Assembly: GCA_025350695.1 (NCBI GenBank)
Contig: JANXXI010000338.1
Span: forward strand, 62,001 to 126,000
Origin: Acidobacteriota bacterium
GTDB lineage: Bacteria; Acidobacteriota; Terriglobia; Bryobacterales; Bryobacteraceae
Reading direction: 5' to 3'
Length of the DNA stretch: 64,000 nt
Both the position numbers and the translations under genes were made by a program. The notes beneath the pieces were generated by a model that was given only the letters and a program-made list of their open reading frames with translations, did no database searches and was not told the origin of the DNA. Below are positions 34,964-37,709 of the stretch, one piece after another (positions within the stretch are counted from its first letter, which is position 1; each line of letters opens with the position of its first letter).

Positions 34964-35386
34964 CTATTTCGGAGTGGACCCTGTAACTGAGCGAATCACA
35001 TAGTAAGTGGCCCTTGTCGCGCCAACGTTTTTCATTCCATGTTCATCGTTCGATGCAAAGAACAATATAGAACCGGGTCCGGCGCGCTCAGTCTTACCGC
35101 CGTGCAACACCTCCAGTACGCCTTCTTTGAGGATCACGATCTCCTCATCCGGGTGCCGGTGCGGGGCATGGGGCGACAGGCCCGCTTCGATGGTTGTTAT
35201 GTGGGCTTCGAAGTTTGTGAACGTGGCGGTTGGTCCGTCCGTCACTTCGCGCCGTTCCCCGGTTTTGGTGGCTTTCGCGGCCAACTGGGTCCATTCAAAT
35301 ACAGTGCTGCCCAAGGGCGCGGTGCGCTTGGCCGATTGCGCGGCAACAACCAGCGCACCGATTGAGAATATGATTATGGATCTCAC
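34964..35386 (-). CDS. exported cupin domain protein
   Basis: 140 residues from the GTG at 35386, which gives a good signal peptide (MRSIIIFSIGALVVAAQSA); a TTG at 35404 would add six residues. The cupin barrel has the first metal motif in PHAPHRHPDEEIVILKEG (His, His, Glu) and the second His in NDEHGMKNVG, so a metal site is likely. The substrate is unknown. It is 53 bases downstream of the lipoxygenase-family gene in the same direction, and may share its transcript. Confidence 0.8.
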   Translation of the reverse strand: MRSIIIFSIGALVVAAQSAKRTAPLGSTVFEWTQLAAKATKTGERREVTDGPTATFTNFEAHITTIEAGLSPHAPHRHPDEEIVILKEGVLEVLHGGKTERAGPGSILFFASNDEHGMKNVGATRATYYVIRSVTGSTPK

Positions 35387-35439
35387 GCATGCAAGTATAC
35401 ACAACCTGGCATGCTTATCCGCTTGCCCGCAACATTATT

Positions 35440-37479
35440 CTAAAGCTCAATATTGCGTGGCCACTGGCCAGTCTGAACCCAGTCCGGTTGCAACCACTTA
35501 ATGAAGCTCTCAATTTCTTTACGGAAACCGATTAGCGCCTGGTTTGCGGCCGGGAATTTGGCATTGTCGAAGAACAATTCGGCGTCCGGGCCTTTCTCCG
35601 GCACTACCGGAACATAGGGCGCGTTGTAGGCAAAGATGTAGTAGAACGACACCAGCTTGCCCAGCGTGCCCGTATTCGGCAGGTACTTCAGCAGCTCGTT
35701 GGTAAGCAGCGGGGCCGTTGGGTCGGGGATGTTGGTCTTCTGCAGGCAGGGAGGATAATTGGTCGCAAAGGGCGGTTCAGGCGTGCCCACGCTTCGCAAA
35801 CGCCCCATACCGTGGAAGGTTATGCGATAAAGAACGCTGGTCACTACGTCTTTCAAAGCCTGCTTCGACTTCATGGCGGGCAGCCCAGCCACATTTCCTG
35901 TTGTAGACGCGTACTGAATCCAGTTGGCAAGATCCGTGTCGGCCGCCACCGCCGCGTCGCTTGCATAACCGGCATCGACAACAGCGCCGACGTAGCTTGC
36001 CACCATTGCCCACACTTTCTTGACAACCTGAACATTCGGGTACAAATTCCACTGCTTGCCGCCGTCGATCGCCGGATCGGTAAAATCGGCTGGATCGAGA
36101 TTCATGTTGGCCAGCATACTGTCCGGATCTGTAGAGAAGAAATCGTGCGTCGCGGAAAACTTATTGCATAAGGAAAGGAACTTGCCGGAGTCGCTGATGG
36201 AAGTCGGCGGGGAAAGGTTGGGCCATCCCAGCATCAGCACCAGATCGAACGGGATGGTGTAGTTCGATTGTGGCGCGATCAGCTGATAGACGATGTTTGT
36301 CTTGGGCAGTACATTTATAGTGGACATCTGCATAGCCGCCGTGACTATGTGCAGTGTGTAAACGTGTCCCAGCCAGATGCCGTAAACGGTCAGCGAGGTC
36401 TTAGCGGCCATCAATGCATAAACCCAAGCCGGGGACGCCTGCGTGTATATCTTGGCGGTGTTAACGTCTTGCGGATCGGCCACGTATACGGCAATCGGGT
36501 TTACATTTTTCGCTCCATCCATTTCCAGCAACACCATTGTTGACGGGGTGAAACGGGCCGTGCCATTGTCCAACTGCGGATCCAGGCCCTCAAAGACGGT
36601 CATGTCGATGCCATACAGCTTCCCCGCGCTCAGAAGGTTGTTGTATTGGGGGAGCCACGCATTGCCAAAATTGATTTGGTAGTTCGCCACGGTTGCAGCC
36701 GTGAGGCGCCGCATCACGAACAGATTGTAAGGCAACGCAGTGCTTCGAATCATCGGCCAAAAGGCCCGCGTCGCCTCAGCAGGGTCCGTAACGGCCTTCA
36801 CGTATTCGGGTATGCGTGGATAACCGTGGCGAAAGCCGTCTTGAAGTGTGGTCCAAGCCATGGAGAACTGTTCCGGGCTTTCGAGAGAAAGCTTTGTGTA
36901 ATCCGCCGCCGCGGCAGCAAGCGCCGGGCCTTGCCCGCCATGACCGAACAGGTGAGCTAAACGCTGCTGCTCTTCGCTCGCCAGGTGAATCAACCCGGTC
37001 CAGGCATCCCCGATCAAGTGCGCCACGCCTGAAGCCTGTCCAACCGCCTTCGTGCGGGCTGTCGCGACAGCGGTTGAAGCCGCTTGCATCTTCAAACGGA
37101 TCGGTGCGAAAACTTCGTCGATGCGGGATGCGTGGGCCGGAAGATTAAAGATGGAGCGCAGAAACGCTTCGATCTGCGTAATCAGAACCTCTAGTTGGGC
37201 CGCTTGTTCCACCTGTTCATGAGTGCCCAGCATGAAGCGCTCCGCCGTGGCGGTAATGCCGTTCAACGTGTATTCGATAGAGAGCCCATCCTTAGCCTGG
37301 ATCAAATATTGCGCCCTGGCAAGCAGCTTGTTCAAGGTGTCGAAAATCTGCTCGAGGCCCGCTTGGCCATCCGGCCTGGGCAGTGCTGGACCGTTCCACT
37401 GGGGCGCCTTGAATCCTTCCAGTAGACCGATCAAATTCAATTCGAGTTGGGTGAGTTTTGTGTATGGGGGGGTACTCAT
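35440..37479 (-). CDS. divergent lipoxygenase-family protein
   Basis: 679 residues from the ATG at 37479 (MSTPPYTKLTQLELN); an upstream in-frame ATG at 37626 would add 49 residues with no domain character. The C-terminal two thirds follow the lipoxygenase catalytic domain: WVYALMAAKTSLTVYGIW, then H372-x4-H377 (iron ligands), NVLPKTNIVYQLIAPQSNYT, WNLYPNVQ..VW.MVASYVGAVV and FHGMGR with H556 as third histidine. Two ligand positions differ from classical enzymes: the residue four after H556 is Arg rather than Asn/His/Ser, and the protein ends in Leu rather than Ile (PRNIEL). Lipoxygenases add oxygen to polyunsaturated fatty acids; whether this one does is open. No PLAT domain or signal peptide is seen. 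Confidence 0.78.
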   Translation of the reverse strand: MSTPPYTKLTQLELNLIGLLEGFKAPQWNGPALPRPDGQAGLEQIFDTLNKLLARAQYLIQAKDGLSIEYTLNGITATAERFMLGTHEQVEQAAQLEVLITQIEAFLRSIFNLPAHASRIDEVFAPIRLKMQAASTAVATARTKAVGQASGVAHLIGDAWTGLIHLASEEQQRLAHLFGHGGQGPALAAAAADYTKLSLESPEQFSMAWTTLQDGFRHGYPRIPEYVKAVTDPAEATRAFWPMIRSTALPYNLFVMRRLTAATVANYQINFGNAWLPQYNNLLSAGKLYGIDMTVFEGLDPQLDNGTARFTPSTMVLLEMDGAKNVNPIAVYVADPQDVNTAKIYTQASPAWVYALMAAKTSLTVYGIWLGHVYTLHIVTAAMQMSTINVLPKTNIVYQLIAPQSNYTIPFDLVLMLGWPNLSPPTSISDSGKFLSLCNKFSATHDFFSTDPDSMLANMNLDPADFTDPAIDGGKQWNLYPNVQVVKKVWAMVASYVGAVVDAGYASDAAVAADTDLANWIQYASTTGNVAGLPAMKSKQALKDVVTSVLYRITFHGMGRLRSVGTPEPPFATNYPPCLQKTNIPDPTAPLLTNELLKYLPNTGTLGKLVSFYYIFAYNAPYVPVVPEKGPDAELFFDNAKFPAANQALIGFRKEIESFIKWLQPDWVQTGQWPRNIEL

Positions 37480-37709
37480 GGGACTGAGTCTATCACAGGG
37501 CCATGAATATTTCCCCCTCAGAAGGAGGTCGATCTTTCTTGCCACCAAGTCAGTAGAGTAGAGTTGGCTTTGGTGGTTGACGCCGCCAGGATGATGTGAG
37601 CCCATGCCGGTTGGCGAGAATTCCATTGACGTGAGGCAGTCCGGCGCTCTGGCCTGCTAGGCAATGTTATCCTCGAATCGTTGCAGGGTTTCGGAGGAGG
37701 CTCATAGAA

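Follow-up and report, generated by a model that had tools for sequence, protein, structure and literature searches.

Positions 35440-37479 of the 64-kb window, which is the whole stretch of soil acidobacterial DNA that was analyzed, are filled by a single open reading frame on the minus strand. The frame lies at the coordinates given in the first-pass annotation, runs from an ATG to a stop codon and encodes a protein of 679 residues, designated P0001. Plus-strand frame 1 over the same positions is interrupted by stops. The coding frame stays open upstream as far as an ATG at 37626, and the start of the related protein of Acidobacteriaceae bacterium KBS 96 (MSKY) corresponds to the P0001 start at 37479. 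The G+C content of the gene (0.559 overall, 0.679 at third codon positions) is close to that of its neighbors and of the window (0.550), and the gene is thus without compositional sign of recent import. No signal peptide was seen by eye in the first residues of P0001, which is therefore read as a protein probably located in the cytosol. A search of NCBIfam returned no family, and a Pfam scan detected no domain besides a subthreshold match to the lipoxygenase profile PF00305. The gene, its predicted active-site codons and its neighbors are as follows.

35440..37479, minus strand: lipoxygenase-related protein P0001, 679 residues, ATG at 37479 and stop at 35440
36349..36366, minus strand: codons H372 to H377, a His-x4-His motif with the first and second of the predicted metal ligands, shared by all four complete clade proteins and by a fifth, fragmentary one
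35812..35814, minus strand: codon of H556, the best candidate for the third metal ligand, invariant in all five clade members
35800..35802, minus strand: codon of Arg560, at the usual Asn/His/Ser position if H556 is the third ligand, Arg in all five members
35443..35445, minus strand: codon of Leu679, the last residue, predicted from the tail pattern to supply a carboxylate oxygen as metal ligand
34964..35386, minus strand: Cupin_2 protein with a signal-like N terminus, 140 residues from a GTG, downstream of P0001
31061..34873, minus strand: OMP_b-brl_4 or TonB-type receptor by Pfam, 1270 residues, beyond the cupin gene, downstream of P0001
38007..41564, minus strand: second OMP_b-brl_4 receptor by Pfam, 1185 residues, upstream of P0001

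The clade to which P0001 belongs has four further members. The protein of KBS 96 (locus L004) shares 64% identity with P0001 in the best tblastn segment and 67% in the alignment, and that of G471, a genome of the same family as the source genome, shares 61%. The acidobacterial metagenome-assembled genome (MAG) CP_BM_ER_R9_6 holds a broken copy, either truncated and frame-shifted or misassembled, that yields a 311-residue fragment with 76% identity. The fifth member is encoded on plasmid pAT1 of the bacteroidete Aureibacter tunicatorum (E 3e-99, with 38% identity across 71% of P0001). A search of 61 relatives matched the source genome and one other. Of the 237 genomes of the source family, 3 had an intact copy and a fourth, G485, a remnant; the same three were the only carriers among 399 genomes of the class. 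In G001, the single listed genome of the genus, no relative was found. Single-sequence searching of 396 genomes of the phylum recovered the gene itself and two weak matches. A match in G318 from the phylum search (4e-4) was set aside as chance, as it falls in a stop-rich stretch away from the lipoxygenase-like gene of that genome. The plasmid search with P0001 returned one record, that of Aureibacter. Relatives were absent from the phage search and from scans of the viral_contigs set, for which the queries included ordinary lipoxygenases and the clade profile.

This very patchy occurrence (intact in 3 of 237 family genomes and not found in same-genus G001), together with the damaged or misassembled MAG copy, is what would be said for regarding P0001 as a classical lipoxygenase whose gene is decaying or dispensable. 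However, full-length frames with matching motifs are kept in three acidobacteria and on one Bacteroidota plasmid, and codon positions 1 and 2 are much more conserved than position 3. Between the P0001 and KBS 96 genes, the differences at codon positions 1, 2 and 3 were 0.25, 0.19 and 0.61; that third positions differ most indicates that the protein is under constraint. We therefore consider decay very improbable.

Evidence of homology to lipoxygenases, enzymes that oxygenate fats, came from several profile and sequence searches. Against PF00305, P0001 scored 19.0 bits (E 5.5e-4), below the gathering cutoff of 23.6; the KBS 96 and G471 proteins scored 21.2 and 23.2, and only that of Aureibacter, at 56.9 bits, exceeded the cutoff. 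The PF00305 search found nothing in the source genome, with control genomes likewise silent, and reached threshold in four of the 396 phylum genomes. Thus, this profile works elsewhere in the phylum yet overlooked P0001 in its own genome, and it can miss real relatives. When P0001 was searched against the PDB, all 27 matches at E<=1 were lipoxygenases or lipoxygenase fusions; 23 of these had E<0.1, the best being ALOX15B (2.3e-9). A profile of four relatives gave 53 distinct PDB matches, 52 of them lipoxygenases (best E 5.3e-13) and one a weak match to interferon gamma (8.4e-4). Profile-profile comparison of the clade with seven bacterial lipoxygenases by hhalign gave a probability of 98.6 and an E value of 1e-15 over 365 columns. 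Finally, a profile built from nine lipoxygenase-family proteins scored 55-98 bits on the four complete clade proteins, as compared with a best score of 7.0 bits for 1000 composition-preserving shuffles of the clade proteins, and the resemblance is thus not due to chance. The lipoxygenase assignment of the first-pass annotation was accordingly not carried by the Pfam profile (19.0 versus 23.6 bits) but was upheld by the other profile searches. At the level of sequence, P0001 is a remote homologue of lipoxygenases, with 15-18% identity to the five lipoxygenase-family proteins compared, and homology can be taken as settled. We class it by homology as lipoxygenase-related rather than as a classical lipoxygenase, because both the Pfam score and the residue at the fourth position after the third histidine depart from that membership.

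Structure prediction was less informative. AlphaFold models made with the P0001, KBS 96 and MAG fragment sequences were poor (pLDDT 38.2 and 43.7). Foldseek with the catalytic-domain model gave 87 matches at E<=0.001, and the 50 listed were all lipoxygenases (E 3.5e-7 to 3.7e-6). For the matches listed, this low-pLDDT model had a query TM score of 0.24-0.29 and an rmsd of 25.7-28.4 Å, with no global fit, and the matches rest partly on sequence. The Foldseek result supports a local resemblance to lipoxygenases and does not bear out the metal site, the convergence of H372, H377 and H556 included.

The relationship of the clade to other lipoxygenases was examined in a 14-sequence tree of the five clade members and nine lipoxygenase-family proteins. 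Support for the grouping of the five clade members was 100/100, and their stem, measured to the midpoint root as drawn, has a length of 4.36 changes per column. Four of the 11 inner branches were well supported, that of the clade included; G318 and the Burkholderia domain lay on very long branches, the MAG row filled 48% of the columns, and the Aureibacter sequence has an unusual amino acid makeup. On these alignments, the clade is a small, sharply separated and strongly diverged one within the lipoxygenase superfamily, and the position of Aureibacter within it suggests transfer between phyla. The first-pass proposal of a separate lipoxygenase-related branch is supported by this grouping, by the PDB matches, by the Aureibacter score over the Pfam cutoff and by an arginine common to all five members.

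According to a 2026 review (PMC13059375), three histidines and the C-terminal carboxylate make up the first coordination sphere of lipoxygenases, and an Asn or His belongs as a rule to the second. The same source allows His, Asn or Ser at this fourth position and a C-terminal Ile, very occasionally Val, and its wording is not uniform, as another sentence counts this residue as a metal ligand. P0001 contains 11 histidines. Just three of them, H372, H377 and H556, are shared by every complete protein of the clade (four in all), and the 311-residue MAG fragment has these three histidines and no other. The three invariant histidines and the C terminus would fit a 3-His-1-carboxylate site. The residues named by the first-pass annotation, H372-x4-H377, H556, Arg560 four residues further on and C-terminal Leu679, are all present, as is its YP...VW..V..YV block. 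Its "W..AK" block was correct in part: W352-x-x-A355 fits the lipoxygenase W-x-x-A, with both residues invariant in an eight-sequence alignment, but Leu356 comes next and the AK is A359-K360, out of register.

The C-terminal tail was evidently kept in length. All five clade members end in P-x-x-I-E-[L/T]-COOH, which is equal in length to the P-x-S-[IT]-N-[IV]-COOH of six of the nine comparison proteins. Retention of the length and of P-x-x-I would be in line with a terminal carboxylate that continues to reach the metal. The final residue is Leu in four members and Thr in Aureibacter, and the penultimate residue (Glu678 in P0001) is Glu in all five, as compared with Asn in seven, Ser in one and Gln in one of the comparison proteins. 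In the spacing pattern H-x4-H-x4-H-x17-H-x8-H, all five positions are His in 6/9 comparison proteins; P0001, KBS 96 and G471 read G,H,H,N,Q and Aureibacter reads G,H,H,H,Q. The x17 and x8 spacings from the H-x4-H to the next two motif positions are the same as in lipoxygenases.

The register of the third histidine was less certain, with alignments differing by one to five residues in the placement of H556 against the canonical third His. MAFFT and hhalign inserted four residues near H556, HMMER placed G557 opposite the canonical His, and phmmer against ALOX15B placed G559 there. In a custom averaged-BLOSUM pair model with nine comparison rows, H556 ranked first for the canonical His in 8/8 settings, with a posterior of 0.17-0.35 that is slightly weakened by keeping the G318 row, whose His sits one column off; G557 nearly tied with H556 in one setting. 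The segment from the conserved Leu542 to Asn574, counted on the alignment rows, differs in length by one residue from the compared lipoxygenases, so that no more would be needed than a one-residue helix deletion before H556 and a short loop insertion beyond it. For Myxococcus fulvus MF-LOX1, another low-identity bacterial lipoxygenase, the second ligand cluster is likewise reported to have aligned with a relative only with difficulty (PMC6612559).

These discrepancies bear on a reading in which H556 is not the third ligand and G557, G559, L561 or a nearby residue aligns instead, leaving a two-His-plus-carboxylate site or a lost site in a pseudoenzyme. That phmmer, MAFFT, hhalign and HMMER all put the canonical His elsewhere, and that the posterior for H556 is low, speak for it. 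Set against these are the standing of H556 as one of just three histidines kept in every member and as the first choice of every pair-model setting, the near-equal length of Leu542-Asn574, and a codon pattern of purifying selection. We judge this reading unlikely, and H556 is taken below as the candidate third ligand.

With H556 so placed, the fourth residue after the third His is Arg in 5/5 clade members. In the comparison proteins it is Asn in 7/9 and Gly in 2/9 (G318 and Nostoc), and since both Gly-bearing proteins exceed the Pfam cutoff, the Asn/His/Ser rule is not strict in bacteria. That the position varies is shown also by mammalian ALOX15B, which has Ser there. Thus, among the clade members the Arg singled out by the first-pass annotation proved fixed, whereas the C-terminal Leu did not, being Thr in Aureibacter. 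The first-pass description of two altered iron-ligand positions was right in that the residues differ but was overstated, because the Arg replaces a mostly second-sphere residue, Leu in place of Ile leaves the carboxylate, and each part of the first sphere has a candidate in P0001. The clade appears to differ at a second-sphere position and in the last side chain, and not evidently in the first-sphere ligands.

Comparison with known lipoxygenases placed these differences in context. Like the bacterial branch of PF00305, which includes Pseudomonas aeruginosa LoxA and Myxococcus LOX, the clade has the catalytic domain by profile, the His-x4-His, a candidate third His and a tail of equal length, and P0001 has no extra Pfam domain. 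Unlike that branch, it has Arg for Asn, a C-terminal Leu or Thr, a five-His pattern changed at two to three positions and an altered PH[FY] block, and three of its four complete members fall under the Pfam cutoff. The Aureibacter protein (WP_309942117.1), already recorded as "Lipoxygenase family protein," shares HGxxR and the P-x-x-I-E tail with P0001 and differs in its C-terminal Thr and in its neighbors, an AraC regulator and hmpA. Among solved structures, mammalian ALOX15B and ALOX12 (PDB 4nre and 3d3l) were the best sequence matches of P0001 and the clade profile. These mammalian enzymes are characterized fatty acid oxygenases that end in Ile and carry a PLAT domain. G318 (P0008) and Nostoc pANSO36A (P0010) likewise have unusual residues four positions after the His and at the C terminus (Gly/Ala and Gly/Gly, respectively) but score over the Pfam cutoff (43.4 and 197.5 bits) and lie outside the Arg clade.

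Several other lipoxygenase-family genes were encountered. The divergent G318 protein (L011:1300-2808, minus strand) has 502 residues, a Gly in place of the usual Asn, and a C-terminal Ala. The gene on the Nostoc cf. commune plasmid (L024:401-1837; the part scanned against PF00305 scored 197.5 bits) has a fourth-position Gly and a C-terminal Gly, and at its 3' end it overlaps with a replication gene annotated on the opposite strand. On a Burkholderia stagnalis plasmid (L026:1-3078), a lipoxygenase-like domain ending in Thr follows an FAD-dependent oxidoreductase in one frame; the annotation names the oxidoreductase only. G443:C5 carries two codirectional lipoxygenase genes (L012:1090-2841 and L010:1072-2892) with a catalase-like gene between them (L012:2838-3857, equal to L010:42-1061) that encodes 339 residues and matches PF00199 at E 1.2e-4 and 21.8 bits, under the cutoff of 25. 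This arrangement recalls catalase-related allene oxide synthase with lipoxygenase.

The genomic surroundings of P0001 were compared with those of its relatives. As first described, the cupin gene lies downstream on the same strand, 53 bases away when read from the GTG at 35386 (35 bases from a TTG at 35404), and is followed by the TonB-type receptor. The functional link between P0001 and these genes at which that description hinted finds no support in the relatives examined, to which the arrangement is not common: cupin homologues in G009, G471 and G485 lie on other contigs or ~1.5 Mb away. The KBS 96 gene neighbors an NmrA-type reductase and a PadR regulator, and the G471 gene a DHDPS-family protein. 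The Aureibacter gene adjoins the AraC regulator and flavohemoprotein hmpA, with a TonB-dependent receptor past the AraC regulator on the opposite strand, and the broken MAG copy adjoins a vanadium bromoperoxidase-like gene. No substrate, partner gene or pathway common to the clade loci was found among those neighbors that were identified. The P0001 gene seems to stand alone.

The bromoperoxidase-like protein beside the MAG copy (L021:1861-3438; L005 3025-4602, minus strand) matched the PDB at 4.4e-60 and had no Pfam match at 0.01. A 47% identical homologue is encoded elsewhere in the source genome (G000:C260:4419-5978). The gene occurs in two of the four clade-bearing genomes tested and in none of eight others, numbers too few to mean much.

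Collectively, these data lead us to favor, with some confidence, the reading that P0001 is a lipoxygenase-related, non-heme metal oxygenase of the cytosol, belonging to a small scattered clade and having a mononuclear site with a second-sphere Arg. We infer the metal, the geometry of the site, the role of the Arg and the reaction as follows. One Fe (or Mn) would most likely be bound by His372, His377, His556 and the carboxylate of Leu679. Abstraction of hydrogen at this site, from an activated C-H bond of an unsaturated lipid or of some other molecule, would precede the addition of O2 to the substrate radical. Arg560 is probably not metal binding and would sit beside the metal, where it may pair with an acid. 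This acid could be the terminal carboxylate of the same chain, the Glu678 specific to the clade, or a peroxide or acidic substrate; such pairing could tune the redox potential or the choice of substrate. As to substrate class, an unsaturated lipid or similar molecule is a guess. The source genome has one fatty acid desaturase over the cutoff, which neither shows nor excludes polyunsaturated lipids.

A different reading, not fully exclusive of the one just given, is that the lipoxygenase fold and metal site were kept while the chemistry shifted away from dioxygenation of polyunsaturated fatty acids, for example to a hydroperoxide-converting, decarboxylating or non-lipid oxygenase in which Arg560 and a remodeled pocket hold a different acidic substrate. 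It draws on the replacement of the PHFEGT-x-IN segment of the compared bacterial lipoxygenases by PQSNY..FD..LML.W..LSPPTSI, which is well conserved within the clade, and on Arg560 and Glu678, each fixed in 5/5 clade members and in none of the nine comparison proteins. The very long clade stem would also be in keeping with it, but a long branch is by itself no proof of new chemistry, and the neighborhoods share nothing that points to a particular substrate, partner or pathway. We consider such a shift possible, at a clearly lower probability than the lipoxygenase-related oxygenase that we favor.

The lipoxygenase literature searched, mostly non-subscription, yielded no description of an Arg at the fourth position or of the P0001 clade. 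The clade thus has a conserved Arg at a position where none was found described in those sources, and it departs from the fourth-position and C-terminal residues given in the consulted passages of the review while apparently keeping the three histidines and the tail. Only tentatively do we propose that it represents a separate class of lipoxygenase-fold enzymes in which an invariant Arg beside the metal is paired with the C-terminal carboxylate or Glu678. If so, the metal of this class would work at an altered redox potential, or on a substrate that is a peroxide or bears a carboxylate, a chemistry not seen in known lipoxygenases. The clade would be a natural test of the effect of the second sphere on lipoxygenase redox chemistry.
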